64,000 nt of DNA from Thioalkalivibrio sp. ALJ16 (GCF_000377345.1 NZ_KB898037.1:1412-65411); one strand, 5' to 3'. Positions 1 through 60,616 are shown, counted from the stretch's first letter. Notes: a model not told the origin generated them from the letters alone. Numbers and translations: made by a program.

Positions 1-92
1 GCCGGCTTCGCCGGTCGATCCATTCACTTCACCCACCACGGGGACACCGTCCCTCGTGGGGGCGGTCTGTCCCCAACACTCGGAGACAGACC
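1..92 (+). promoter_or_regulatory. Repeated structured leader, copy A (left part cut off)
   Basis: This is the untranslated leader of the methyltransferase gene at 93. All 92 bases are identical to 2006-2097 in front of a different gene. It holds the shared core, in which CACGGGGA can pair with a nearby TCCC/CGTG block, while GGGGACA can instead pair with the distal TGTCCCC. It ends in the ribosome-binding sequence CGGAGA about 8 bases before ATG. The window begins inside the module, so the upstream hairpin block seen in copies B, E and F presumably lies off the left edge. Confidence 0.8.
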
Positions 93-1817
93 ATGTCCTT
101 TGAACAACTGCAGTTCTATCCAACCCCGAAGTCCCTGGCCAAGAAGGCCTGGTCCAAGTTCCGGGATCGCAACTTTGTTCGCGTCCTGGAGCCATCCGCC
201 GGCAACGGCGACCTGTTGGCCGCCGCGCCCTCGGATCGGCGGATGGGGAGATCCCCCATCGACTGCGTCGAGATCGACATCACCCGCCACCCGCGTTTGC
301 GGGACGAGGGTTACTCGGTCGTTGGGCTCGACTTCCTCCAGTTCAATTCCGGCTCGATGTACAGCCACGTCATTCTCAATCCACCCTTCGCCCAAGGCGT
401 GCATCACGCGCTGAAAGCCTGGGACTTGTTGTGGGATGGGGAGATCGTGGCGATTCTCAACGCTGAAACGATCCGAAACCCGTGCTCGAAAGAACGGGGC
501 CGTCTCGTCCAGCTTGTGGAGGCTCATGGCGAAGTGGAGTTCGTTGAAACCGCGTTTGCCGGGGAGGATTCCGAGCGGAAAACCAACGTCGAGGTGGCGC
601 TGGTGTATCTGCGGAAGACCGCTGACCTGGAGCAGGATCTGGCCGGGACGATCATGGAAGACCTTGAGCGGGACTCCATGACGGCCGCAGGGCTCGCGAG
701 CGGCTATCACGAGCCGCAGGAGCTGGCCCTGGGGGGCTCGACCATTGAAAACGCTGTGACCGCCTTCAACGCAGCCGTAAGGGCCGCGCGCGAGTCGGTC
801 TTTTCGGACGCAAGGGCTCGGCGGTACAAGGCCCTCCTGGGGCGCTCAATGGGCGCTGTGACCGGCGGATACTGTGATGATGCCTTCGGGGATAAAACCT
901 CGGTGGAATACGTCCGACGTGAGCTGGCCGAGCGCTACGACGACCTCAAGGATCGCGCATGGACCGGGATTCTCCGATCCTCGCGTGTGACCGACCGGCT
1001 GTCCTCGGCCGGGCAGAAGCAGGTTGAGTCGCACTTCGCTCAGATCAAGACCCTGGAGTTCACCGTGAGCAATATCTACGGATTCCTCTTGGGCGTGATC
1101 GAGAACCAGGGCGAGATCCAGCTCAAGATGGCGTGCAGCGTGTTCGACCAGATCACCCGGTATCACTCGGAGAATGCCGTGTACTACCGGGGGTGGAAGT
1201 CGAACGATCGTCACAGGGAAGCCGGGATGCGGATCAAGATGACCCGCTTCATCCTTCCTGGGCATGAAACGGCATCGTGGAGGCAGAGCCTCGATTTTGA
1301 TTCCCTTCGTCTACTGAGCGACTTCGACAAGGTCTTTGCGATGCTCGACGGCAAGCAAAAGCCGGAGTACGGCATTGAGGACGCCTTTACCAAGGAGTTT
1401 GAATCGCTGCGCTCGGGAGAGCGGGTGAGCAGCTCGTACTTCGACCTTCGGTACTACCCTGGCGCTGGAACGATCCACTTCTTCCCTCGCAACAAGGAGG
1501 TGGTGGATCGTCTGAACCGCCTGGTCGGTCGGCATCGTGAGTGGCTGCCGCCGGAAGATGCTCGCGTTAGCGAGGACTTCTGGCTTCAATACGAGAAAGC
1601 GGAGCGTTTCGACAAGGAGCTTCGAGAGGAGGTCCGGAAGACCCCGATGGAAAGGTTCTGCTGGGGGTCTCCTTTCGACCAGTTGTGCCGTCGGGACGAA
1701 GACGGAAAGCGCCGCGCCCACGAAGCAGTGGACCAGGCCATCGGGCGCGTGCTCGAACGCCATGGCATTGACGTGGACAGGGCGCTGGAAGCGTCTCAGA
1801 AGCGTCTCACTGCATGA
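93..1817 (+). CDS. N6-adenine DNA methyltransferase with DUF4942-like C-terminal region
   Basis: A 574-residue protein. The N-terminal third is a class I SAM-dependent methyltransferase: LEPSAGNGDLL (about residues 33-43) is the SAM-binding motif I, and NPPF (about 96-99) is the catalytic motif IV of N6-adenine or N4-cytosine DNA methylases. The C-terminal part, with YYRGWKSNDRHREAGMRIK, resembles the DUF4942 region found with such enzymes on mobile elements. ATG at 93 follows CGGAGA. A hairpin terminator follows the gene and no restriction endonuclease lies next to it, so it is probably an orphan methylase that modifies ICE DNA to evade restriction. The methylase fold is clear; target and role are inferred. 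Confidence 0.85.
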   Translation: MSFEQLQFYPTPKSLAKKAWSKFRDRNFVRVLEPSAGNGDLLAAAPSDRRMGRSPIDCVEIDITRHPRLRDEGYSVVGLDFLQFNSGSMYSHVILNPPFAQGVHHALKAWDLLWDGEIVAILNAETIRNPCSKERGRLVQLVEAHGEVEFVETAFAGEDSERKTNVEVALVYLRKTADLEQDLAGTIMEDLERDSMTAAGLASGYHEPQELALGGSTIENAVTAFNAAVRAARESVFSDARARRYKALLGRSMGAVTGGYCDDAFGDKTSVEYVRRELAERYDDLKDRAWTGILRSSRVTDRLSSAGQKQVESHFAQIKTLEFTVSNIYGFLLGVIENQGEIQLKMACSVFDQITRYHSENAVYYRGWKSNDRHREAGMRIKMTRFILPGHETASWRQSLDFDSLRLLSDFDKVFAMLDGKQKPEYGIEDAFTKEFESLRSGERVSSSYFDLRYYPGAGTIHFFPRNKEVVDRLNRLVGRHREWLPPEDARVSEDFWLQYEKAERFDKELREEVRKTPMERFCWGSPFDQLCRRDEDGKRRAHEAVDQAIGRVLERHGIDVDRALEASQKRLTA

Positions 1818-1824
1818 AGACCAC

Positions 1825-1856
1825 ACCCGCCCAGGCATTTGCCTGTGGCGGGTTTT
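1825..1856 (+). terminator. Rho-independent terminator after the adenine methylase
   Basis: ACCCGCC (1825-1831) pairs with GGCGGGT (1847-1853). An inner stem, CAGGCA with TGCCTG, extends it with one bulge. The hairpin runs straight into TTTT. It ends transcription 8 bases after the stop codon. Confidence 0.75.
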
Positions 1857-1901
1857 ATGACAGAGTTTGAACCACCGCGGCCCTTGCCATTGGCTAGGGG
1901 T

Positions 1902-2097
1902 GGCGTCATTCCCGAGGGTCGCGCGCGGCCCTGGGGAATGACGGCTTTACCGCCCGCCTGAGCGTATCAGGCCCCTGAAAGCACCCCCGGATCGGGCAGG
2001 GGTGCGCCGGCTTCGCCGGTCGATCCATTCACTTCACCCACCACGGGGACACCGTCCCTCGTGGGGGCGGTCTGTCCCCAACACTCGGAGACAGACC
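1902..2097 (+). repeat. Full repeated trailer/leader module, copy B
   Basis: A 196-base intergenic module nearly identical to 4359-4558 and 4986-5182. In order it contains: a long hairpin of about 20 pairs (CGTCATTCCC at 1904 with GGGAATGACG, inner arms AGGGTCGC/GCGGCCCT); a small CCTGA/TCAGG hairpin; GCACCCC/GGGGTGC; CCGGC-TTC-GCCGG; and finally the leader core CACGGGGACACCG to GCGGTCTGTCCCC plus CGGAGA. The last 92 bases are identical to copy A. See findings for covariation and alternative pairing. Confidence 0.85.
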
Positions 2098-2433
2098 ATG
2101 ACTGCGCGTATCAAGATCACGTTCGAGCGATGGAAGCCCGTCGATCTGGAACTTGGCGAACCCTCACAGCGGGGATGGATCGATTCCGAGGGCGTCCGAA
2201 TGGACCCCGAAGATCCCGAGGACCGGTCGGCGGTCGAAGCGGCCGTGGAGTTCCTCAACCGCAAGGGAGCTGTTCACCCCTCCAGTGATCCCCCAACCGG
2301 CATCGACCTGTGGTTCTCCACTGAACCCGAGATCGATTTCGAGACCGGGGATCAGGAGATCCGGAGTTACCACCTCAAGGGGTTTTCCGTGGAGGAAGAA
2401 CTCCAGGTGTTCCACCGGATCCGGTACGGCTAA
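2098..2433 (+). CDS. Unknown acidic ICE cargo protein
   Basis: 111 residues starting at ATG 2098, chosen because the repeated leader and its CGGAGA site end just before it. The longer open frame upstream only translates the leader. The protein is acidic (repeated D, E and P, for example VRMDPEDPEDRSAVEAAVEFLN), with no signal peptide or membrane segment. I recognise no family. It sits between two DNA methyltransferase genes, each with its own leader, so a role in ICE defence evasion or stability is possible but unproven. Confidence 0.65.
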   Translation: MTARIKITFERWKPVDLELGEPSQRGWIDSEGVRMDPEDPEDRSAVEAAVEFLNRKGAVHPSSDPPTGIDLWFSTEPEIDFETGDQEIRSYHLKGFSVEEELQVFHRIRYG

Positions 2434-2475
2434 CGCCCCGGGCGGCAGACGCGATCTGCGCGCCCACTTTCTTTT

Positions 2476-2540
2476 ACCCACCACGGGGACAACCGATCCC
2501 CGTGGGGGCGGTCTGTCCCCTCCATGCAGGAGATAGACGT
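2476..2540 (+). promoter_or_regulatory. Repeated structured leader, copy C (core only)
   Basis: Only the leader core is present, without the upstream hairpin block. CACGGGGA pairs perfectly over 8 bases with TCCCCGTG across a 7-base loop, and GGGGACA can instead pair with TGTCCCC (2514-2520). The end, CAGGAGATAGACGT, carries the ribosome-binding site for the cytosine methylase at 2541. Confidence 0.8.
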
Positions 2541-3935
2541 ATGGCAACGACAGTGATTTACACGACCCTGGGCGAACGCAAGGGGACCAAGCGGTTGTGG
2601 CTGGAAGGCCGACGGCTGGCGCGGGCCGGAATCAGTCCCGGCCAGCATTTCGAGCTTACGAGTCTCGATAACGTGAAGGGCTCGCATGACGGCCTCACCC
2701 TTCGATTCACCCCAACGGGTGACCGGAGGGTGTCCCGTCGCAAACGCGGCGACCAGGAATTGCCCGTTATCGACGTGTCGGGCGAAACACTGGTGACCGC
2801 TTTTGGCGAAGCGAAACGGGTCCGCGTCGTTATCCGTCCTGGCTCGATCGAGATCCGGGTCCACCATCACGATCGAGCAACGGCTGAACGCTCGAAACGG
2901 CTTCTACAACGCCTGAATCAAGGCGATCCGCTACGCATGGCGTCTCTGGCCCATGGTGGCGGCATTCTGGACCACGCGCTCCATCGAGGCCTTGCCGCCG
3001 CCGGTGTCCCCGTCGAGCTGGCCTTTGCCAACGAGTCGGACGGTGACTACCTGGAGGCATCGCTGGCGAACAACCCGATCTGGAAGTCGGATTCGATCGC
3101 CATCGAGGCTCCAATGCAGGATGTGGAATGGCGCAAGCTACCGGCCATCGACATCCTCGCGGCGGGGCTTCCCTGCACAGGGGCCTCCCTCTCGGGTCGA
3201 GCGAAAAACCGCTTGGCGAAAGCCGAGGAGCACGAAACCGCTGGTCCTTTGTTCGTCGCGTTCCTAGCGGCGATTCAGACCTTGCGGCCGAGTGTGATCC
3301 TGCTGGAGAACGTGCCTCAGTACGGCACCACGACCAGCATGACGGTGATCCGGTCCATCTTGAGCAGCCTCGATTACGAGCTGCACGAGACGGTTCTCGA
3401 CGGATTTGAGCTGGGCTCGATGGAGCGCCGCAATCGGTTCTGCATGATTGCAACCAACCCGGAGGTTCCATTCTCGTTCGACGGGCTGCGTGCCGTTCGG
3501 GATCGTGAGTCGTGCATCCGGGACATCCTGGAGGACATCGACCCTGACGATCCTGCCTGGAAGGCCTACAGCTACTTGGCCGAGAAGGAGGTCCGCGACA
3601 AGGCCGCCGGTAAAGGCTTTCGGCGGCAGCTCCTCGATGGATCCGAGGAAAGCCTCGGGACCATCGGGCGCGGGTACGCCAAGGCGCGGTCCACCGAGCC
3701 GTTCATTCGACATCCGAGCGACCCGGCACTCACTCGGTTGCTGACACCGAAGGAGCATGCCCGCGTCAAAGCGGTTCCCGAGTCCCTGATCGAAGGGCTC
3801 TCCGCCACGCGCGCGCATGAAATCCTGGGTCAGTCTGTGGTGTACGCCGCATTTGAAGCCGTCGGAATGCACCTCGGGCGTGCGCTCGCAGCCTTGCGGG
3901 ACTCGATGCAGCCACATCAATCCGTCGCGGCATAA
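2541..3935 (+). CDS. DNA C5-cytosine methyltransferase
   Basis: 464 residues. About 135 N-terminal residues of unknown function precede a C5 methylase core. It has the catalytic Pro-Cys loop (GLPCTGASLSG; the usual family motif is PCQxxS), the ENV motif (LLENVPQYG) and, near the C-terminus, LTPKEHARVKAVPE, which fits the terminal conserved motifs. Start ATG 2541 follows CAGGAGA at the end of the leader. It is the second orphan methylase in the cargo block and no partner endonuclease is visible. The N-terminal extension is unusual. Role in protecting transferred DNA from restriction is inferred. Confidence 0.88.
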   Translation: MATTVIYTTLGERKGTKRLWLEGRRLARAGISPGQHFELTSLDNVKGSHDGLTLRFTPTGDRRVSRRKRGDQELPVIDVSGETLVTAFGEAKRVRVVIRPGSIEIRVHHHDRATAERSKRLLQRLNQGDPLRMASLAHGGGILDHALHRGLAAAGVPVELAFANESDGDYLEASLANNPIWKSDSIAIEAPMQDVEWRKLPAIDILAAGLPCTGASLSGRAKNRLAKAEEHETAGPLFVAFLAAIQTLRPSVILLENVPQYGTTTSMTVIRSILSSLDYELHETVLDGFELGSMERRNRFCMIATNPEVPFSFDGLRAVRDRESCIRDILEDIDPDDPAWKAYSYLAEKEVRDKAAGKGFRRQLLDGSEESLGTIGRGYAKARSTEPFIRHPSDPALTRLLTPKEHARVKAVPESLIEGLSATRAHEILGQSVVYAAFEAVGMHLGRALAALRDSMQPHQSVAA

Positions 3936-3951
3936 CCCTTGTCGCTCCGTC

Positions 3952-3988
3952 CGTGCTCACCCAGCGATCTGCTGGGCGAGCACGCTTT
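3952..3988 (+). terminator. Terminator hairpin after the cytosine methylase
   Basis: CGTGCTC (3952-3958) pairs with GAGCACG (3978-3984), and CCCAGC pairs with GCTGGG inside, with a single-base bulge on each side and loop GATCT. A short CTTTC follows. The next leader starts at once, which insulates the neighbouring genes from each other. Confidence 0.65.
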
Positions 3989-3989
3989 C

Positions 3990-4053
3990 ACCCACCACGG
4001 GGACAGCCGATCCCCGTAAGGGCGGTCTGTCCCCTCCATGCAGGAGACTGAGC
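3990..4053 (+). promoter_or_regulatory. Repeated structured leader, copy D (core only)
   Basis: Core leader with CACGGGGACAGCCGA followed by TCCCCGTA. The proximal stem loses its last pair here (GTA in place of GTG), while the distal GGGGACA/TGTCCCC pairing is intact. It ends with CAGGAGACTGAGC, the ribosome-binding region of the small membrane-protein gene at 4054. Confidence 0.75.
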
Positions 4054-4218
4054 ATGTTCGATCTCGCACGAATCCAGGAAGGCCTGCGGCAGGCTGGCAT
4101 ACTGCTGGCTGTTGCCGGGATCCTGGCTCTGTTCATCGAACGTGGATTCACCGCAGGAGGACTCAGCACCGTGGTCCTGGGCCTGATCCTCTGGCTCGTG
4201 GGCTGCTGGGAGAGCTAA
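4054..4218 (+). CDS. Small two-helix membrane protein
   Basis: 54 residues: about 13 residues of amphipathic start (MFDLARIQEGLRQ), a first hydrophobic helix (AGILLAVAGILALFI), a polar turn (ERGFTAGG), and a second helix (STVVLGLILWLVGCW). CAGGAGA lies 9 bases upstream of ATG. It is followed one base later by a second tiny membrane protein, and both share the single leader at 3990-4053. No family is recognised. The pair could act at the membrane during conjugation or entry exclusion, which is speculation. Confidence 0.65.
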   Translation: MFDLARIQEGLRQAGILLAVAGILALFIERGFTAGGLSTVVLGLILWLVGCWES

Positions 4219-4219
4219 G

Positions 4220-4327
4220 ATGATGCTCATGGAAGACTTCGGCGTGTTCATTGGGCTGGCACTGATCGGGATCGTGATGATCGGCGCCTACCTGATCGCC
4301 CGCCGGCAAAACCGTCGGCGCCATTGA
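4220..4327 (+). CDS. Tiny single-span membrane protein
   Basis: 35 residues beginning MMLMEDFGVF, with one hydrophobic stretch (FIGLALIGIVMIGAYLI) and a basic tail (ARRQNRRRH), so the C-terminus should face the cytoplasm. ATG at 4220 lies one base after the stop of the previous gene, so translation is probably coupled. It is too short for usual gene-calling cut-offs. Function is unknown. Confidence 0.55.
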   Translation: MMLMEDFGVFIGLALIGIVMIGAYLIARRQNRRRH

Positions 4328-4358
4328 CCAACCGCCACTCCCGCCACTGGCGCGGGGT

Positions 4359-4558
4359 GGCGTCATTCCCGAGGGTCGCGCGCGGCCCTGGGGAATGACG
4401 GCTTTACCGCCCGCCTGAGCGTATCAGGCCCCTGAAAGCACCCCCGGATCGGGCAGGGGTGCGCCGGCTTCGCCGGTCGATCCATTCACTTCACCCACCA
4501 CGGGGACACCGTCCCCCGTGGGGGCGGTCTGTCCCGAAACTCTGAGGAGACCGCTATA
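4359..4558 (+). repeat. Full repeated trailer/leader module, copy E
   Basis: The same sequence of hairpins as copy B: the CGTCATTCCC/GGGAATGACG long stem (4361 onward), the CCTGA/TCAGG hairpin, GCACCCC/GGGGTGC, CCGGC-TTC-GCCGG and the leader core. It is almost identical to copy B up to the distal TGTCCC. It then diverges to end in GAGGAGACCGCTATA before ATG 4559. Confidence 0.85.
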
Positions 4559-4933
4559 ATGGAAAGCATGATTGCGTTCGACACCCATGCCTACGTCAAG
4601 AAGCTCCGCTCCGCCGGTGTATCGGAGGAGCAGGCGGAAGTGCAGGCGCAGGCGATGCTGGAGCTCATGGAATCGAGAGTGGCCACGAAGGAGGATTTCC
4701 GGCTCCTTCGCGAGCAGATGGCCACGAAGGAGGACCTCCGAGAACTGGAAGCCCGTATGGCCTCCAAGGAGGACCTCCGGGAGATCGGATCGAGGATCGA
4801 TTCGATCGAGTCGCGTATGGCCTCCAAGGAGGACCTAAAGGCGTTCGTGACCCGTGCCGAAATGTATCGGGCCCTGCTCATTCAAACCGGCGCGATCCTG
4901 GCCTCCATGTTCGCCATGCTGCAGTTGATGTGA
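4559..4933 (+). CDS. DUF1640-like coiled-coil protein with C-terminal membrane anchor
   Basis: 124 residues. N-terminal FDTHAYVKKLRSAGVSEEQAE is the typical opening of DUF1640/CCDC90-type proteins. The middle is a coiled coil built from repeats around ATKEDFRLLREQM, ATKEDLRELEARM, ASKEDLREIGSRI and ASKEDLKAF. The end is a hydrophobic anchor (YRALLIQTGAILASMFAMLQLM). ATG 4559 has GAGGAGA 8 bases upstream; ATG 4568 is an alternative. Such proteins are frequent on plasmids and ICEs, with unclear function. It is preceded by its own copy of the repeated module. Confidence 0.75.
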   Translation: MESMIAFDTHAYVKKLRSAGVSEEQAEVQAQAMLELMESRVATKEDFRLLREQMATKEDLRELEARMASKEDLREIGSRIDSIESRMASKEDLKAFVTRAEMYRALLIQTGAILASMFAMLQLM

Positions 4934-4985
4934 CCACCGGATCCTCTCCGGGGAGTCCCTTTCCTTAAAACGACGCCCCTTCGGG

Positions 4986-5182
4986 GGCGTCATTCCCGAG
5001 GGTCGCGCGCGACCCTGGGGAATGACGGCTTTACCGCCCGCCTGAGCGTATCAGGCCCCTGAAAGCACCTCCGGATCGGGCAGGGGTGCGCCGGCTTCGC
5101 CGGTCGATCCATTCACTTCACCCACCACGGGGACACCGCTCCCCGTGGGGGCGGTCTGTCCCCTCCATTCGGAGACAGACAC
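4986..5182 (+). repeat. Full repeated trailer/leader module, copy F
   Basis: Same structure as copies B and E. The inner arm reads GCGACCCT instead of GCGGCCCT, so a G-U pair becomes A-U and the stem is kept. A GACGCCCC-TTCG-GGGGCGTC hairpin (4972-4991) with a UUCG-type loop overlaps its left edge and could serve as a terminator for the DUF1640 gene, although no T-run follows. The module ends in CGGAGACAGACAC before ATG 5183. Confidence 0.85.
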
Positions 5183-5827
5183 ATGCGCTACTCTCAATTT
5201 CATGCCTGGGAACCCCTGGACGGGCAACTGCTGGACACCGTGGACAACTTCCGGCGTTTCATCGAAAACGCCGTTGCGTGCCGTCATCCGGAGAACAGCA
5301 TTGAATACTGGTCGAAGCCCCGCGACATGAACGGCCAAGGCCTCCATGAGTATCTTTCACAGATCCACCACTGCGCCGTCTACGCCCATCCGGGCGGGTC
5401 GGAGGGCGACATCATTCGGGTATCGTTTGCGACCCGAGACGGGGAATACATCCCCGTTTGTTTCGCCAAGCTGTTAGGGCCGGAGTTCGAGGTCTGGGAC
5501 ATCACGAAGACCGTCGCCGAGGCGGTCAATGGAATGATCCTCTACCAAGAACAGCCCATGCTTCCCCGTTTGGCGAGCCGTTTCGTTCGTCTCAACCAGG
5601 GACCCAGCCTGATCGAACGACCGGACGGCAAAACGCTGATCCTCGAACTGGATGGCAACGGCGATCTCGTCGTGTCCATGGCTGGGGAGCCCCTGAAACC
5701 GGAAGCCCACCATCAAGTCGCGGACAAGCCGTGGCTTTTGGAGGCTCTGCTCCGCGAGTACAAGCAGTTCTTCGGAGATATGGGCAACCACCCCCTCGAC
5801 TTCGTGACGAAACCCGTCACCACGTAA
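5183..5827 (+). CDS. Unknown ICE cargo protein
   Basis: 214 residues, soluble, no signal peptide or membrane helix. ATG 5183 follows the leader and CGGAGA. A central stretch (VYAHPGGSEGDIIRVSFATRDGEYIPVCFAKLL) and the later ILELDGNGDLVVSM look like beta-rich segments. No family was recognised. It has its own full leader module, like the methylase genes, which suggests it is co-controlled with them. A short hairpin-forming stretch follows the stop. Confidence 0.65.
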   Translation: MRYSQFHAWEPLDGQLLDTVDNFRRFIENAVACRHPENSIEYWSKPRDMNGQGLHEYLSQIHHCAVYAHPGGSEGDIIRVSFATRDGEYIPVCFAKLLGPEFEVWDITKTVAEAVNGMILYQEQPMLPRLASRFVRLNQGPSLIERPDGKTLILELDGNGDLVVSMAGEPLKPEAHHQVADKPWLLEALLREYKQFFGDMGNHPLDFVTKPVTT

Positions 5828-5900
5828 GCCAGCCCCCTTTACCAAGGGGCCCGATCGGTCCATGGATCCATCGGTATTGCCGGTGGGTCCATGACGTTTA

Positions 5901-5964
5901 TTCACCCCAAGGGGACACCGTCCCCATGGGGGCGGTCTGTCCCCTCCATGCAGGAGACAGACAC
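5901..5964 (+). promoter_or_regulatory. Repeated structured leader, copy G (divergent core)
   Basis: The most divergent leader. The outer CAC/GTG pairs are lost, but AAGGGGAC-ACC-GTCCCCATG keeps a proximal stem, and GGGGACA can still pair with the distal TGTCCCC. The invariant 3' half and CAGGAGACAGACAC lead to ATG 5965. Upstream, at about 5872-5899, another hairpin (TGGATCCA with TGGGTCCA) takes the place of the CCGGC-TTC-GCCGG hairpin. Confidence 0.75.
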
Positions 5965-6420
5965 ATGCACACCTATGAACTCGCGGAGCTGTATCGCGAC
6001 CCGCTGTACCAGAAGCGACTCCTGGAGGTCGGCACACGCGCGGAACTGCTTGCCTGGGCCGCCTGGAAGGACCCCAATGGGATGTTTCTCGACCTAGACT
6101 GTGATGCCGAGGGGTTGCCTCGGCTGAGCCGCACGGAGGCCGCCAACGCGGTTTCAGGGATGATCGATTTACCCCGGATCGCGGCGGCATCGCTTCCTTC
6201 GCCGGAATACCGCACCCTGCGGGTGTCCGACGAGGGCTCACCCCTGGTGGGCGATTACGTCGCCACGCTTCCTGCTCCGGACGCTCTCGGGAGACTGAGG
6301 ACGCTGCGGAAGGAGGCGAAGGCACTCGGCGGAACTGCGTGGAGCAATGCGCGCGCGGACGTGGTCGAGCTTCCTTGCGCCGCCGGCGAGCGACTGCAAC
6401 ACGTCTTCCGCTGGATCTAA
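5965..6420 (+). CDS. Unknown ICE cargo protein
   Basis: 151 residues starting MHTYELAELYRDPLYQ. It is predicted soluble, mixed alpha/beta, with no recognised domain. ATG 5965 has CAGGAGA 10 bases upstream inside the repeated leader. It is the last cargo gene before the gene-free regulatory region and is followed directly by a hairpin and a split copy of the trailer block. No function can be assigned. Confidence 0.6.
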   Translation: MHTYELAELYRDPLYQKRLLEVGTRAELLAWAAWKDPNGMFLDLDCDAEGLPRLSRTEAANAVSGMIDLPRIAAASLPSPEYRTLRVSDEGSPLVGDYVATLPAPDALGRLRTLRKEAKALGGTAWSNARADVVELPCAAGERLQHVFRWI

Positions 6421-6423
6421 TCT

Positions 6424-6573
6424 GACGGCCTTCGGGCCGTCATTCCCGAGGGTCGCGGGCGGCCCTGGGGAATGACGGCTGATTTTCAACATTTTGAGCC
6501 GGGAGGATTGCCCGGAATAGACCCTTGCGGTTGAATGCGTATTACACCGCCCGCCTGAGCGTATCAGGCCCCT
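6424..6573 (+). repeat. Split trailer block, copy H
   Basis: A GACGGCC-TTCG-GGCCGTC hairpin follows the stop codon of the upstream gene. The CGTCATTCCC/GGGAATGACG long stem (6438-6477) is present with a CGCGGGCG centre. The next block of the module (ACCGCCCGCCTGAGCGTATC, from 6546) is separated from it by about 65 bases instead of 2. The leader core and a downstream gene are missing. This is the degenerate right-hand end of the repeated series. Confidence 0.75.
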
Positions 6574-6664
6574 TGCCGGCGCCCGTCGGCAAAAGCCCCT
6601 ACGCGCCGAGAGTGGGGGCGCCGCGACCCCGTAGGCGGCCCGGTGCTAACGGCTGGCCCACTTT

Positions 6665-6685
6665 TGTCCCTGGCTCGGGTCAGTC
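6665..6685 (+). repeat. 21-base direct repeat, left copy
   Basis: TGTCCCTGGCTC-G-GGTCAGTC matches 43440-43460 at 20 of 21 bases in the same orientation. The other copy lies between the integrase gene and the tRNA-Thr. Its meaning is unknown; an integrase, excisionase or transfer-protein binding site is possible. Confidence 0.5.
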
Positions 6686-6772
6686 GATCAATACCGAGCC
6701 TCGGTGGAGGCTCACAAGTCAACTCGTTGGGCCCTCCGGGCCCGGCACGAGTTCTTCTCGAATGGTTTAGGG

Positions 6773-6817
6773 AGGTCTCCCCACGGCGGGTGCAATGCGT
6801 CCGCCGTGGGGAGGCCT
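6773..6817. other. Long perfect hairpin, possible oriT or protein site
   Basis: CTCCCCACGGCGG (6777-6789) and CCGCCGTGGGGAG (6801-6813) are perfect inverted copies around an 11-base loop. Flanking bases extend the stem to about 17 pairs with one G-U. No T-run follows, so it is not a normal terminator. Such hairpins are typical of relaxase or single-strand initiation sites, but that role is inferred. Confidence 0.5.
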
Positions 6818-7152
6818 TGGTCTCCGTGATCAAAATCACTGGCCGCCCACCGCCAGATGCAGCGTGGGTCCCTTTGTGCGGCACTGCCGCGCCATTCGAG
6901 ATAGATCCATTCCCCCAAACCATGGATCGCCGGAAGACGACTCGCTACTGCAGGAGGGTGAGATCGATCCGCCCCGGGGACGCCTCCCATTCGACCGGGC
7001 CATCGCACAATCGACGCGCCCGGTCCTGACGCACCTCAATCGAAGTCAACTCGCGGATCAGCCACCCCCGACCAACCGGGGTGGCTGGTTACGTTTTGCC
7101 CACCTTTGGCAAGTCCTTGTTCCCTCGCTTTCTTCCCCCTCTTTTCCGTTCA

Positions 7153-7177
7153 GTTATCCACAGTTTTTGTGGATAAC
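7153..7177. other. Palindrome of two perfect DnaA boxes
   Basis: GTTATCCACA (7153-7162) and its exact reverse complement TGTGGATAAC (7168-7177) flank GTTTT. Each arm contains TTATCCACA, the high-affinity DnaA box consensus. It lies 3 bases before the promoter-like element of the first transfer gene cluster. It could mark an ICE replication origin, a DnaA-controlled promoter, or simply a hairpin. Confidence 0.55.
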
Positions 7178-7179
7178 TC

Positions 7180-7215
7180 AAAAACCCTTGGCGCTCGATT
7201 CAGGATTTTTCGTAG
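7180..7215 (+). promoter_or_regulatory. Transfer-operon promoter-like element, copy 1
   Basis: AAAAACCCTTG (7180-7190), 11 variable bases, then AGGATTTTTCGTAG (7202-7215). The same two blocks with the same spacing occur at 14273-14308 before the second transfer gene cluster. It lies 130 bases before the first conjugation gene. The shared spacing argues for a common promoter or activator site; which bases act as -35 and -10 is not clear. Confidence 0.6.
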
Positions 7216-7231
7216 CCGCCGCAGACGGGGT

Positions 7232-7326
7232 ACGGACAATACGCCTTGTCCGTTGCCTTGGCATCGGATAGCCCATACCCGTAGGGCTGGTGCCCGCGCC
7301 TGCCTCCGATGGCGCGGGCCTTTATT
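7232..7326 (+). terminator. Operator-like repeat and terminator ahead of the first transfer gene
   Basis: ACGGACAA (7232-7239) and TTGTCCGT (7246-7253) are perfect inverted copies. Further on, GCCCGCGCC (7292-7300) pairs with GGCGCGGGC (7311-7319) and is followed by CTTTATT, a terminator shape. As it lies between the promoter element and ATG 7346, transcription of the operon may be attenuated or a short leader RNA may be released here. Confidence 0.5.
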
Positions 7327-7345
7327 CCAAGCAGGCGAGGAAGAC

Positions 7346-8077
7346 ATGCGAAAACGGTTACCCGCACTCCTTGTGGCGCTGGCGTTCACCTCCTGGGGGA
7401 GCGCCGCCGCTACTGATATTCAGGTGGGCCGATACCTGACCGCCGCTGACGCACCCGCGCCCGAGCAGGTGCAACCCCTGCAGGTCACGGTCCAGATGGA
7501 TTTTCCCTCGGACATCCAACACGTCGGCGCGGCACTCACCTACCTCCTGACACACAGCGGGTATCGACTGGAGGACCCCGCGACGGCGGACCCTGCCATG
7601 CGGGTGCTGCTGACTCGTCCGCTTCCCGAGGTGCATCGAGAACTCGGCCCCTTGAGCCTTGAGAATGCGCTCACCACCCTCGCCGGCTCCACCTGGCGTT
7701 TGGTCGTTGATCCCACCATGCGCGAGATCTCCTACGAGCCTCGTGAGCCCTACGCCGAAGCCGCGCGCGCTCGCGGCCGAGCGATCGAGGCCGATAACGT
7801 GCGCGACGTGCTCGCACCGAAGCCCCCAACGACCCGCATGTATGGCCCGGTGCAGCGCGGCGAGACTCTCCGCTCCATCGCCGAGGCGATTTCGCCGGGG
7901 CAACCGGTGCGTATGGCCGCAGCACTGTTCGAGGCCAACCCGCACGCCTTCTTCCCGGCCAATGCACCGAATCCCAATCAGCTCCGCACCGGCGTCGAGC
8001 TGGAAATCCCCAGCGATGCGGCGGCCAACCACCACAGCCCGTCGCGCGCCCGGTCGATTCTGCGAGGTGACCAATGA
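7346..8077 (+). CDS. ICE PilL-domain protein with C-terminal LysM/FimV-like region
   Basis: 243 residues. Signal peptide MRKRLPALLVALAFTSWGSAAA, then an ICE PilL-type region (TIGR03748-like: VTVQMDFPSDIQHVGAALTYLLTHSGYRL), then a LysM/FimV-like segment (YGPVQRGETLRSIAEAISPG). ATG 7346 is the start because the upstream frame only covers the leader region. It is the first gene of the transfer cluster in PFGI-1-like elements and acts in the envelope, probably on peptidoglycan or the outer part of the apparatus. It overlaps the next gene by 4 bases. Confidence 0.78.
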   Translation: MRKRLPALLVALAFTSWGSAAATDIQVGRYLTAADAPAPEQVQPLQVTVQMDFPSDIQHVGAALTYLLTHSGYRLEDPATADPAMRVLLTRPLPEVHRELGPLSLENALTTLAGSTWRLVVDPTMREISYEPREPYAEAARARGRAIEADNVRDVLAPKPPTTRMYGPVQRGETLRSIAEAISPGQPVRMAAALFEANPHAFFPANAPNPNQLRTGVELEIPSDAAANHHSPSRARSILRGDQ

Positions 8078-36106: not shown

Positions 36107-39100
36107 ATGCAAGTGATATTGGTCTCGCTTTGTGAGAAAAAAGCGATCCGGAAGACACGCCGAGTCCTGGATCGATACGCCATTCGCAATGGGGGTCGGT
36201 CCTGGATAACACCCGTCACCCAGGAGGGCCTGGAAGAGACCCGGAAAGCCCTTCGTCGAACCGCCTCTCGCAGCACAGCCGTAGGCTGCTACCAGGTCGA
36301 CCGAAGCCGTCATCACCTCTTGTGGGTTGTCGGGCGGCGCAGTGCCTTTGGGTATGCCGGCGAAACCGCTGTAGGCGAAACCAAGCGCACCCGGCGTAGC
36401 CCACCATCGCCCTGGGTGCGGAAGACAGCCCTCGTAGCCGCAATGGCCGGCCTGGCGCACGACATTGGAAAGGCCACTCCGCGCTTTCAGGGAAAGCTCC
36501 GAGCGGCCGTTTCGGGGCGCCCTAACGAGGGCATGGCGGACCGAATTCGGCACGAGTGGGTATCCACGCGCGTCCTGGAAACATGGCGTGAATTACAAAA
36601 AGAAAGTGTGTCCCCAGTTTCGTTAAAACACGCATGGACCAAGATCGGAAAGATGGAGCGCTACCCCAGTCTTTTCGAGAACGGCGACGCAGACGGCTTT
36701 GATCCGTTTGATGATGAAGAAAACTCGCCTCGTATTGATAACGTTCATGCCGCCGTCGATGCAGCGGTTCTTACTCATCACGGCCTGCTGGGCCCGCAGA
36801 AATCAGATGGTGCCGCTGGCGGAGCGCACGAACCCCAGCACAATCGCCATGTGCGCGCGCCTGCCAATTACCCAAATCAGGGTGCAGACCAATACAGCGG
36901 TGTGTTTGAATCCCGGGAGTTCAGCGAGAACGTCGAGAAAAAACTTCGGGGTATGCTCAAGCGACTGAACAGGCTCGAAGAAAAGGACGATGAACTGTAC
37001 TGGCGCGCAACCACCCTGCTCGCCCGTGTCGCCTTGATTGCAGCCGACCATCAAGTCTCACAAAGGATCGCTCCCGAATGCCCGGATCCTGATGCGCTGT
37101 TCGCCAACACTGCACGGGGAGCCCCTGGCGTCCCGTCACGGCTGAACCAGACACTTGATTATCACCTCGATCAAGTCGGGAAGCAGGCTCAGGAGTGGGT
37201 GTACCGAATCGATCACCTGGATCTTCCGGGACTCCATCGGGAGACACGAGAGCAGCTCCAGATGCGCTCCGGATCCGGGCGATTCCAGTGGCAGGATGAA
37301 GCCGTCGATCACCTCGATCGCCAGCGTGGACACGAAGGCCCCTGGCTGGTCCTGAATAACGCGGAAACCGGTGCGGGGAAGACGCGCGCGAATCTCCGTG
37401 CGATTGAAGCGATGACCCCCGAAGGGTGCCCGATGCGCGCATCCATCGCGCTGAACCTGCGGTCACTGACGCTGCAAACGCATGACGCCTTACAGAACCA
37501 GCTCGGGCTCGGGGACGACGAGCTGGTCTGCCTGGTGGGGGATTCGTTTGCTCGAGCCGCGTTCAACGAGGCACAGGAAGCCCGCTACGACAATGACGAA
37601 GATGAGGACGAGACCGAGCAAGGCGAATTTCAGGTAGTGGGCGAACCGAACGCCCCTGATCTCCCTGAATGGCTGGAACACTGGGCGCCGGGGCCTGCGG
37701 GTACACGAACGCGAACACTGCTGGGATCGCCACTCCTGGTATCCACCATTGACTACCTCATTCAATGCGGAGAACCGGGGCGGCAGGGCCACCATGTCAA
37801 AGCATTCCTCCGCATCGCGCAAAGTGATCTGGTGCTTGACGAGATCGACAGCTACGAGCCCAAAGCGCTGGTCGCGGTACTGCGCCTGGTCGTGATGTCC
37901 GCCATGATGGGCCGACGCATCGTTGCATCCAGCGCAACCCTGTCCAGCCCTGTGGCGAACGCACTGGTGACGGCTTTTAACGTCGGGGCCCGGATGTACG
38001 CCGCGCTGCATGAGCAGCCCGCGGGGGCGACACCCGGCCGGGTGTCCGTGATGGATAACCGGCTCCCCCCGGAGTCGAAACCACTCGAATCCCTTGAGGG
38101 CGTCACGCAGTGGTATGAGCGTCGCGTCAACGAAATGATGCGCAGCGTCCTGGAAGACGAGCCCCGGCGGCGGGCCTTTATCCAGGAGGTGGACGAAGGG
38201 GAAGACGATGTCGATGCCCGTTTCCATGCTGCGGTGGAGGCAGCCGCCCGCGCCTTGCATCGTAACCAGCGCTGGCAGCACCGGAGCGGAACCTGGGTGT
38301 CGTTCGGGCTGGTCCGTGTTGCCAACGTGCCGCCCTGCGTGGCACTGGCGAAGGCCCTGAACGACCGGCTGGACATCCACGCCTCGGCCTACCACTCGAT
38401 GGACGTGAAGGCGCGTCGCGCCATGAAGGAGGCACGTATGGACCGCCTCTTTCAGCGCTCAGGCCCGGACGATCCGCTGGCACTGGACCCCGAGATTGAG
38501 GCGATGATCGAGGCCTCCGGCGAAGACGAGCTGATCTTTGTAGTGGTGGCAACGCCCGTTGAGGAAATCGGGCGCGACCATGATTTTGACTGGGGCGTGA
38601 TCGAGCCATCGAGTACGCAGTCCATCGTGCAGACGGCGGGACGCGTGAACCGGCATCGAAGGACAAGCGTGAAGGCTGCCAATGTCGCAATCCTCGACCG
38701 CAACCGGCGGTCGCTGCTGCACGGTGAGGGCGAGGACTGTTTTGTGATGCCGGGGAACGGCTATGCCTACACCGATGCGGAGAGGGGGGAACACCGGATG
38801 AGCCGCCTGCTGGCGCAGGCGCCTGGATGGAGCACTGACGGCCTGCTAGACCTCACGGCCGCAGTTCATTTCGGACTTGAGGGGCAAAAAGCCCGGTTCG
38901 CGGAAATGGACGATGCAGCCGTCGAGCGAGCGCTTCGGGGCGGAATGGACGTAATCCAGGGCGAGGACGCCATGAACATGGCGTGGATGGTGATGGCGCA
39001 CTACCGCGATTACCCTCTGCGCGATGAAGGCGGGACCGTGACATTCGAGTTCGCGGAAGACGACGGGCGGTTTGAGGTGTACAGGGTTAGCCGGGACCAC

Positions 39101-39298
39101 GAAGATCAACTGTTGGACGATAGCGGCTTCCAGATCCGGGAAGGGAATCGATCCTGGCTCTCATGGAGTCTTCCGGAAGCGAAAGCCTACGCGGAAAAGA
39201 TCGGTATGCCGAGGCTGGGTATGCAGGTAGAGGTATCCGATACGATTGCGAACGGTCGCACCGCCATCCGGTTCGATGAGTGGGAAGGAGGGCGATAG
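36107..39298 (+). CDS. cas2-3: Cas2-Cas3 fusion nuclease-helicase of type I-F
   Basis: 1063 residues. Residues 1 to about 95 are the Cas2 domain (MQVILVSLCEKKAIRKTRRVL). The HD nuclease follows with LAHDIGKATPRFQGK (His118, Asp119). The helicase has Walker A ETGAGKTRANL (about 420), DEID (about 577), SSATLS, VEEIGRDHDFDW and QTAGRVNRH (about 841). It destroys targets marked by the Csy complex and joins Cas1 in spacer uptake. All key residues are present, so it looks active. It is divergent from csy1, unlike the usual co-directional I-F locus. Confidence 0.95.
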   Translation: MQVILVSLCEKKAIRKTRRVLDRYAIRNGGRSWITPVTQEGLEETRKALRRTASRSTAVGCYQVDRSRHHLLWVVGRRSAFGYAGETAVGETKRTRRSPPSPWVRKTALVAAMAGLAHDIGKATPRFQGKLRAAVSGRPNEGMADRIRHEWVSTRVLETWRELQKESVSPVSLKHAWTKIGKMERYPSLFENGDADGFDPFDDEENSPRIDNVHAAVDAAVLTHHGLLGPQKSDGAAGGAHEPQHNRHVRAPANYPNQGADQYSGVFESREFSENVEKKLRGMLKRLNRLEEKDDELYWRATTLLARVALIAADHQVSQRIAPECPDPDALFANTARGAPGVPSRLNQTLDYHLDQVGKQAQEWVYRIDHLDLPGLHRETREQLQMRSGSGRFQWQDEAVDHLDRQRGHEGPWLVLNNAETGAGKTRANLRAIEAMTPEGCPMRASIALNLRSLTLQTHDALQNQLGLGDDELVCLVGDSFARAAFNEAQEARYDNDEDEDETEQGEFQVVGEPNAPDLPEWLEHWAPGPAGTRTRTLLGSPLLVSTIDYLIQCGEPGRQGHHVKAFLRIAQSDLVLDEIDSYEPKALVAVLRLVVMSAMMGRRIVASSATLSSPVANALVTAFNVGARMYAALHEQPAGATPGRVSVMDNRLPPESKPLESLEGVTQWYERRVNEMMRSVLEDEPRRRAFIQEVDEGEDDVDARFHAAVEAAARALHRNQRWQHRSGTWVSFGLVRVANVPPCVALAKALNDRLDIHASAYHSMDVKARRAMKEARMDRLFQRSGPDDPLALDPEIEAMIEASGEDELIFVVVATPVEEIGRDHDFDWGVIEPSSTQSIVQTAGRVNRHRRTSVKAANVAILDRNRRSLLHGEGEDCFVMPGNGYAYTDAERGEHRMSRLLAQAPGWSTDGLLDLTAAVHFGLEGQKARFAEMDDAAVERALRGGMDVIQGEDAMNMAWMVMAHYRDYPLRDEGGTVTFEFAEDDGRFEVYRVSRDHEDQLLDDSGFQIREGNRSWLSWSLPEAKAYAEKIGMPRLGMQVEVSDTIANGRTAIRFDEWEGGR

Positions 39299-42292: not shown

Positions 42293-43231
42293 ATGCCCGC
42301 GATGGAAACCCACCGCACCCTAGACGACCTGGTGCAGACTTATCTGCGCGAGCGGATCCTGCGGCCTGAGACCGCAATGCGCTATCAACAGGTCGCTCGT
42401 CAATTTCAGAATGATTTGGGCCCCAGGACGCTGGAGACGATCCAGCGCGAGACACTGCTGGAGTGGCGAAGCCTGGTCCTGCAGCGCGCCCGTGCGACGA
42501 CCTGGAACTACTACCGGCGCCATTTTCGTGCGATGTGGCGCTTCGCCATGGAAGCGGAATGGATCAGCCACGACCCGCTGGAACGGGTGGATGCGGCTCC
42601 TGAAGATCGCCGGATCAAGACGGTTTCCCGAGACCTGCTGGATCAGGCGATCACCGCGCTGGACGATCCCGAGAACCGATGCCTTGAGCCCCGCTGGTTC
42701 TGGCACGTGGTGCTGCTCACCTTCTACTACACCGGCATGCGACGGCGGCAACTGGTGGCACTGACCTGGGGCGACGTGTGCTGGAAAGAAGGCGAGCTGC
42801 GGCTTTCAGCAGCGGGATCCAAAACCCACCGCGAGTGGGATATTCCGATCCCCGCACCCTTGATGGAACCGTTACGGGAACTATACGGGCGCACCATCGC
42901 GCTACGCAGTCCCCGGGGCCTTGAGAAAGCTCCAGTATTCGACCTGGGCCTGCATCGAGGCGAAACGCGCTACCAGGGAGACGGCATCCGAGTAGGACAG
43001 GTCAGCGGCTTTTTTCGGAAGCTAGGCGAGGTACTGGGACAGCCCATATCACCGCACCGTCTCCGGCATACGCTGGGGACCGAGGTGGGGCGGCGGGAAA
43101 ATCCGCCGCTTCGTGCGCTGCAACACTTGCTGGGACACACCAACCTCTCGACTACCATGCAGTACGTAGAGCCCGACATGGGGCAGCTGCGGCAGCTGGT
43201 TGACCACCTGCCGCAGCCAGGGCGGTCGTAG
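42293..43231 (+). CDS. int: Tyrosine integrase of the ICE
   Basis: 312 residues. The full catalytic set is visible: Arg150 (TGMRRRQL), His255 and Arg258 (SPHRLRHTLG), His282 (LLGHTNLST) and Tyr291 (TMQYVEP), plus an N-terminal SAM-like arm domain. GGGGAGGG lies directly before ATG 42293; ATG 42302 has better spacing and may be the true start. It is the gene closest to the tRNA-Thr, as expected for an integrase acting on the tRNA 3' end. XerD-like size rather than the larger P4 type. Confidence 0.9.
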   Translation: MPAMETHRTLDDLVQTYLRERILRPETAMRYQQVARQFQNDLGPRTLETIQRETLLEWRSLVLQRARATTWNYYRRHFRAMWRFAMEAEWISHDPLERVDAAPEDRRIKTVSRDLLDQAITALDDPENRCLEPRWFWHVVLLTFYYTGMRRRQLVALTWGDVCWKEGELRLSAAGSKTHREWDIPIPAPLMEPLRELYGRTIALRSPRGLEKAPVFDLGLHRGETRYQGDGIRVGQVSGFFRKLGEVLGQPISPHRLRHTLGTEVGRRENPPLRALQHLLGHTNLSTTMQYVEPDMGQLRQLVDHLPQPGRS

Positions 43232-59392: not shown

Positions 59393-60616
59393 TTGATCCG
59401 GTTCGGGAGAGCGGCCCTGAGCGAGCCCTACACCAATTCGGGACCGACGGAGACCACGGAGAACGGCCAACGCTACCGTGCCACGCGCCGGGTGACGCTG
59501 GTGGGCGCGACCGTGAACAGTTTCCTGGCCGTCGCCCAGCTGCTCAGCGGCTGGCTGCTGAACTCGCAGGCGCTGGTCGCGGACGGCGTGCATACGCTGT
59601 CGGACCTGGTCACCGACGGTGTCGTGCTGTTCGCCGCGCGCAAGGCCGCGGCGTCCCCCGACCAGGACCATCCGTACGGCCATGCCCGCATCGAGACCCT
59701 GGCGACGGTCATCGTCGGGGTCTTTCTGGCCCTGGCGGGCCTGGGGATCGCCTGGGCAGCCGGCAACCGGCTGGTCGATCCCGAGGCCATGACCGGTCCG
59801 GCGAATATGGCGATCTTTTTTGCCGCGCTGACCCTGGTCGCGAAGGAGGGCCTGTACCAGTACACCCACCGGGTGGCGAAGCGCCTGCGCTCGCGGATGC
59901 TGGATGCCAATGCCTGGCACCACCGCACCGATGCGATCTCGTCGCTGTTCGTGCTGGCCGGTGTGGGCGCGGCGGTGGCCGGCTTCCCGTGGGCGGACGC
60001 CCTGGCGGCGCTGATCGTCGCGCTGTTCATCCTGCATATCGCCGGGCGCCTGATCGTGCACGCCGCGGCGGAGCTGATCGACACCGCGCTGGAGCCGGAG
60101 AAGGTGGATCGCATTCACCGCACCATCCTGGACGTGCCCGGGGTGAAGGATGCGCACATGCTGCGCACCCGGCGCCACGGCAGCGACGTGGTGGCCGATG
60201 TGCACATCCAGGTCGCGCCGATGATCTCGGTCTCCGAGGGCCATCGCATCGCCGATGCGGTGTTCCATTCGGTGACCGACGAGCATGACCGGGTCAACGA
60301 CATCACGGTGCACGTAGACCCGGAGAATGACGCGGACCAGGCTCGCAGCTCATCCCTGCCGCTGCGCCCGGCCCTGGTGGAGGCCCTGCGCGAGGCATGG
60401 GCTGATGTCCCGGAACTGGACGCGATCGAGCATGTGTCCCTGCACTACCTTGGCGGCCGAGTTCACATGACGATCACCCTGCGCCTGGACCCGGCGACCG
60501 GTCCGGCCGACCTCCATGCGCGCACCCGCGAACTGGCCGATCGGCTGCAGCGCCACTCGGGGGTAGGCGACATGCTGGGCGAAGTAACGCTACTCTATCG
60601 TCCGTGCACCCATTAA
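59393..60616 (+). CDS. Cation diffusion facilitator transporter
   Basis: 407 residues from TTG 59393 (tentative). Six helices with the metal sites [20 protein letters not shown] and [14 protein letters not shown] (HxxxD), and [21 protein letters not shown] between them. The cytoplasmic C-terminal domain is followed by an extra ~100 residues that look like a second, similar domain, longer than the ~300 residues usual for CDF. Exports zinc, iron or similar divalent ions; the ion cannot be told. Its last codons overlap an NtrC site of glnA. Confidence 0.87.

Follow-up and report, generated by a model that had tools for sequence, protein, structure and literature searches.

A pseudoknotted leader built like radC RNA, with a putative Shine-Dalgarno switch, repeated ahead of accessory genes in a Thioalkalivibrio ICE

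Why should one folded sequence stand, copy after copy, in front of nearly every gene of a mobile-element array, and what might it do there? The array belongs to an ICE of Thioalkalivibrio sp. ALJ16, and its interior forms the 5' end of the 64,000-nucleotide stretch analysed here (GCF_000377345.1 NZ_KB898037.1:1412-65411), referred to below as the window. Detection of PilL2, TraD, TraC (PFL_4706 type), TIGR03755, TIGR03759 and a MobH/PFGI-1 relaxase places the element in the PFGI-1 class; close relatives are Thioalkalivibrio strains ALE14 and ALMg11 and T. halophilus, and in the window an integrase gene (42293-43231) adjoins a tRNA. A sequence-only reading had listed seven leaders with a shared core, and all seven are present at the positions that it gave. 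The three that carry a nearly identical upstream block belong to a 215-nt repeat family (D1), whose copies share 94% and 85% identity. This block does contain the four hairpins proposed for it (1904-2039, 4361-4496 and 4988-5123), but it measures 136 nt, not about 110. The leader at the window edge has its 5' portion beyond that edge, in an assembly gap, and can be seen whole on contig C28 (97-293).

Table 1. Leaders, their parts and the genes behind them (window coordinates).
Feature	Position	Strand	Remarks
3' part of full leader (H4, linker, platform)	1-92	+	precedes DUF4942 gene, ATG 93
DUF4942 protein gene	93-1817	+	PF13708, 5.9e-49
Upstream domain, full copy, of 111-aa gene	1904-2039	+	model R1, 166.3 bits
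Hairpins of this domain	H1 1904-1943; H2 1956-1972; H3 1981-2005; H4 2006-2020	+
Pseudoknot of this domain	1989-1994 with 2021-2026	+	loop GGATCG with linker CGATCC
Platform of the same leader	2041-2097	+	detector score 22; MFE includes S2:S3; ATG 2098
Hairpin P1 of this platform	2041-2064	+	contains S1, GGGGACA, 2045-2051
S2 of this platform	2069-2079	+	GGTCTGTCCCC
S3 of this platform	2090-2097	+	GACAGACC; beside SD GGAG 2087-2090
111-aa protein gene	2098-2433	+	no family (Pfam)
Platform-only leader	2476-2540	+	detector score 22; precedes C5 DNA methyltransferase gene, ATG 2541
C5 cytosine DNA methyltransferase gene	2541-3935	+	PF00145, 8.6e-26
Platform-only leader	3990-4053	+	precedes two small membrane-protein-like genes
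Two small membrane-protein-like genes	4054-4218; 4220-4327	+
Full leader	4361-4558	+	domain 4361-4496 and platform; R1 166.3 bits; S3 AGACCGCT; 124-aa coiled-coil gene, ATG 4559
Coiled-coil protein gene	4559-4933	+	CCDC90-like, under Pfam cut-off
Full leader	4988-5182	+	domain 4988-5123 and platform; R1 165.8 bits; detector score 23; precedes 214-aa gene, ATG 5183
214-aa protein gene	5183-5827	+	no family
Platform-only leader	5901-5964	+	detector score 21; precedes 151-aa gene, ATG 5965
151-aa protein gene	5965-6420	+	no family
Interrupted domain copy	6438-6672	+	H1 at 6438-6477, H2 region 6546-6573; no platform; R1 40.8 bits

The full module stands at the head of a gene or gene group, and the platform-only leaders (2476, 3990 and 5901) precede the genes that follow, an arrangement that would fit transcription units in which several genes share a single upstream domain but each has its own platform. 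In the several leaders that have no upstream domain, the domain may be dispensable or may be shared from the leader of the preceding gene. Further cargo genes of known family are ArdC and DUF3577/STY4534, and the ALMg11 relative has ArdB. Just beyond the window the same ICE contains at least eight further copies of the module; array copies are found at the contig start (C1:1-115, 285-350 and 1146-1311, in an array region spanning C1:1-1311), and contig C28 carries four additional copies of the upstream block together with divergent leaders. Throughout the 2.75-Mb genome, matches to the upstream block are confined to these two places, the C1/window array and C28. Copies ahead of ICE genes were also found in related genomes, as the sequence-only reading required. 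Its central proposal, a common structured control region that recurs in front of each gene or small group of genes of an ICE, is supported.

The upstream domain runs in the order H1 (40 nt), a near-invariant CGGCTTTACCGCCC, H2, CCCTGAAA, H3, H4 and CGATCC, and UUCG loops are present in H4. In an alignment of 20 distinct copies from four strains (A1) 91% of cells are paired and 12 pairs have changed on both sides; the covariation was reached in 0 of 500 shuffles. A comparison of H3-H4 in several families shows that the stems are kept, with two-sided changes in 11 of 13 pairs (covariation 0.596 vs 0.236, 0/500 shuffles). The H3 loop (GGAUCG) forms a pseudoknot with the linker after H4 (CGAUCC), with 99.1% of cells paired; most copies have GGATCG/CGATCC, and elsewhere it is replaced by GGACCG/CGGTCC or GGATCC/GGATCC. 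The segment 1902-2103 folds at -112 kcal/mol (z = -6.1), and none of 200 shuffles was as good. The covariance model of the domain, R1, matches other gammaproteobacterial families with several copies per element (G120, G160, G243 and the MAG contig L048) and gives single matches in G313 and G234; minus-strand matches were disregarded, as H1 is nearly self-complementary and alone matches either strand. A phylum-wide search with R2, a model of H3-H4-linker, added one weak genome (G723, E 8e-4). On the MAG contig (PKDC01000068.1) leader copies flank a group II intron at L048:10580-11139. In several copies a strong TTCG hairpin just upstream (window 4970-4993 and 6424-6441) overlaps the 5' arm of H1, so that the two must be mutually exclusive. 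The leader of the MKARTITK gene (L010:2493-2589, minus strand) has a different, longer nested hairpin, for which Rfam returned only microRNA hairpins by chance.

The platform between the domain and the gene, about 60 nt from P1 through to the start codon, contains a strand S2 with two possible partners: S1, which lies upstream of it, and the Shine-Dalgarno (SD) strand S3. The sequences of the three strands vary by gene while both pairings are retained, as in the triples (S1/S2/S3) GGGGACA/GGTCTGTCCCC/GACAGACC, GGGGAAAC/GTTTCTCC/GGAGAAAC, GGGGAGAGC/GTGCTCTCC/GGAGAGCAT and AGGGACGACC/GGTCGTCCCT/GACTGACC; platforms can be imperfect, the S3 GACTGACC being mismatched with its S2. A detector based on geometry only (S1:S2, S2:S3 at the SD, and S1 also within hairpin P1), with no sequence terms, scored at least 20 in 35 of 52 distinct leaders and in none of 2080 dinucleotide shuffles. 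Of the 424 SD-bearing starts in the remainder of the window, 2 reached this score, both in one place, 60114-60118 on the minus strand (score 22), a chromosomal-looking region where the signal is possibly due to chance. Pair counting could not be used, because S2 and S3 fell out of register in the MAFFT alignment of all platforms (A2), and the two duplexes were instead assessed separately by comparing cognate with non-cognate strands. For S2:S3 the cognate duplex has -15.9 kcal/mol vs -11.1 with leaders of other classes, and for S1:S2 the values are -16.6 and -11.3; the order was reversed in 0 of 2000 draws in each case. Both alternative pairings are therefore backed by covariation, and the predicted default fold covers the SD. 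The mean cost of opening the SD is 8.1 kcal/mol at leaders vs 3.1 in control genes (p 2e-9), with cheap opening (2.3-2.5 kcal/mol) at 2541, 4054 and 4559. On the covariation, the conserved structure of the module, including its pseudoknot and the hairpin over the SD, is close to certain.

The stability of the SD-hiding hairpin would also be consistent with plain insulation, in which the hairpin constitutively lowers expression, S1 resembles S3 simply because both are purine-rich, and nothing switches. Purine-rich, SD-like strands readily pair with pyrimidine strands and some match between S1 and S2 is to be expected. However, the cognate S1:S2 duplex was the stronger in all 2000 draws, which shows that S1 follows S2 beyond the constant GGGGA/TCCCC, and insulation would have no need of an attached domain in which a pseudoknot is conserved. 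We consider this explanation improbable.

Which strand folds, and in what form? In the helices G-T pairs outnumber A-C mismatches (43:12 and 25:8), which makes the coding-sense strand the folded one. The main alternative to an mRNA leader is a role for this strand as single-stranded DNA during transfer: on entry the leaders, like Frpo or ssi sequences, would offer a folded start for RNA polymerase or primase and so allow early anti-restriction expression. It is the main rival because the cargo fits. ArdC, ArdB and the DNA methyltransferase resemble the anti-defence genes of plasmid leading regions, which Frpo promoters, likewise folded sequences on conjugative elements, precede (PMC11541004); the cargo genes of the array are co-oriented, and the hairpins are strong and of one strand polarity. 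Frpo promoters are, however, defined by -35 and -10 boxes in the folded stem (PMC11541004), whereas a search of positions 1-7000 for a sigma-70-like promoter gave 0 sites with a consensus that may not be the host's. Furthermore, the structure here is tied to the SD and start codon, which the platform tracks exactly, and this would be needless in a DNA promoter. The tolerated G-T wobbles also fit RNA better, though not decisively. We regard the single-stranded DNA role as unlikely. The attachment to the SD and start codon, together with the polarity of the strand, makes it likely that the module acts as an mRNA leader controlling translation.

The sequence-only reading had named two Rfam motifs, radC and STAXI, as candidates for the module, and neither model matches at E up to 10. 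The radC RNA motif (RF01754) was described by Weinberg et al. in 2010 (PMC2864571). With its gathering cut-off of 40 bits the radC model has no match in the window, nor does it match the array at E<=10, contig C28 at E<=5 or elsewhere in the organism's own genome, and in intermediate taxa there was no match at E up to 5 to RF01754 nor to any Rfam leader family. The model does work, since it matches the RNAs in G296 and in Pseudomonas ICEs. Other Rfam matches at E<=10 (P2, PhotoRC-I and mir families) were rejected as chance. The STAXI model (RF01728) matched nothing in the genome, nor in the array at E<=10; this test is weaker than that for radC, as the positive control likewise gave none. STAXI RNAs consist of two to three tandem pseudoknots and occur in Enterobacteriales (RF01728; PMC2864571); they share with the present module a location near DNA-handling or anti-restriction genes and UUCG loops (in H4 here), but the module has one pseudoknot per leader and an SD platform. 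A BLAST search of the leader against plasmids and phages gave no match.

Comparison with the Pseudomonas ICEs of the same class nevertheless links the module to radC. There a true radC RNA occupies the equivalent leader position, ahead of DUF3577 (STY4534) and neighbouring genes, and the same S1/P1/S2/S3 platform is located between the radC RNA and the start codon. R2, which was built without radC sequences, was searched with its filters disabled against 91 kb of Pseudomonas ICE loci, and its top four matches all fell within radC RNAs and in register, although radC makes up about 1% of the searched strands; the register holds on five radC RNAs, with individually weak scores (E 0.07-7.4; 0.07 to 2.3 for the top four). 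Both RNAs have a hairpin, CCC, a hairpin with a GATC (or variant) loop, a variable hairpin and a linker complementary to the loop, and the loop-linker pseudoknot was found with covarying sequences in 15 radC RNAs (0/5000 permutations); an earlier drawing of it by Rfam or Weinberg et al. may exist. Both also lead DNA-handling genes on mobile elements, here ArdC, ArdB, the methyltransferase and DUF3577. They differ in the loop consensus (CCGGATCGGGAAG here, CACGATCTTCAAG in radC), in the 5' hairpin and in the extra H1 of the Thioalkalivibrio domain, and the 3' part of RF01754 (the GTTCGC..GCATCC..GCGAAC..GGATGC pairings) was not seen between the linker and P1 in the sequences inspected here. The upstream domain, which is built like radC RNA and probably homologous to it, lies outside RF01754 as defined, and we read it as a sister family that appears to be undescribed; no description of the module was found in the main texts of the open-access literature, though supplements may hold one.

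How would such a leader work? Each would act in cis, as RNA, at the start of an accessory mRNA of the ICE, with H2-H4 and the pseudoknot between the H3 loop and the linker making a sensor-like fold of the radC type. By default P1 would hold S1 while the S2:S3 hairpin covers the SD, keeping translation low; once freed, S1 would pair with S2, S3 would open and the ribosome could bind. The upstream domain presumably drives the release of S1, and the signal might be a small molecule, a protein, temperature or coupling to transcription. The anti-restriction and other accessory genes would in this way stay off until the element has use for them, e.g. when it enters a new host. In its working only, this resembles the translational riboswitches that sequester the SD, with a conserved upstream domain and mutually exclusive SD pairings; unlike them, the Thioalkalivibrio leader has no known ligand. 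What the sequence shows is the structures with their covariation, the position at the start codon, the plan held in common with radC leaders and, within this genome, the restriction to the ICE; an action as RNA, an exchange between the two states, its control by the upstream domain and silencing as the purpose are inferences. Against the reading stand the leaders that lack an upstream domain, the imperfect platforms, the low cost of opening the SD at three genes, the weak scores of single R2 matches to radC and the failure to find a sigma-70-like promoter in 1-7000. Taken as a whole, we think it probable that the leaders are cis-acting RNAs whose SD switch silences anti-restriction and other accessory ICE genes until needed. 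If this is true, a large class of ICEs controls such genes gene by gene at the RNA level, which bears on the survival of ICEs when entering cells with restriction systems. A more speculative extension, to which we would give only a small chance, is that ICEs of this class possess a regulon under RNA control. Its pseudoknotted sensor domains, radC in Pseudomonas and the new one in Thioalkalivibrio, would be interchangeable parts on one common SD switch; they would sense transfer or arrival in a new cell and then release anti-restriction proteins. Since its description in 2010 the radC RNA has remained an orphan, and the comparison provides it with a sister family, a covarying pseudoknot common to both and an output part: the three-strand SD switch just outside the Rfam model, through which radC leaders would act. 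A radC-type function can now be tested directly with simple reporters.

A further explanation is that the repeats are mainly recombination platforms for cassette exchange, their folds being incidental or serving a recombinase. Between strains the gene content of the array differs, cargo genes being gained or lost while the leaders remain. One and the same leader follows the same 52-aa gene in two strains and has different genes downstream (L009:348 and L038:4915), as if cargo had been exchanged at the leader. Similarly, the identity over 92 bases that the sequence-only reading noticed between two leaders of different genes extends to 95 nt (1-95 and 2006-2100). Recombination does not, however, require the gene-specific S1/S2/S3 triples to diverge and yet stay complementary; pairing is conserved more than sequence, and the leaders end at a start codon, which also speaks against this explanation. 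We judge it the least probable of the alternatives, and a translational role for the leaders remains the preferred reading.

At the array end, before the pilL2 gene, lies a mostly noncoding stretch of about 1.2 kb (6345-7500) that is rich in long inverted repeats, e.g. at 6773-6817. It could be the site of oriT or of another cis element. The 'split remnant' proposed at 6424-6573 lies within it, and this description was not upheld: the stretch is 89% identical in three other Thioalkalivibrio strains (L038, L039 and L040), so that a functional site at the array end seems more likely than a decaying copy. At the other edge, position 1 of the window comes right after a 100-N scaffold gap (L009:1311-1411; L010:1-95), and contig C28 has a complete leader and breaks off inside the DUF4942 gene that follows here. 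The contigs may therefore be misordered in the scaffold at this point, and how the array pieces follow one another is a matter of assembly. Further into the window, a Cas3f of type I-F CRISPR-Cas (TIGR02562, 1e-202; 36107-39298) apparently sits among ICE genes, ahead of the relaxase gene.
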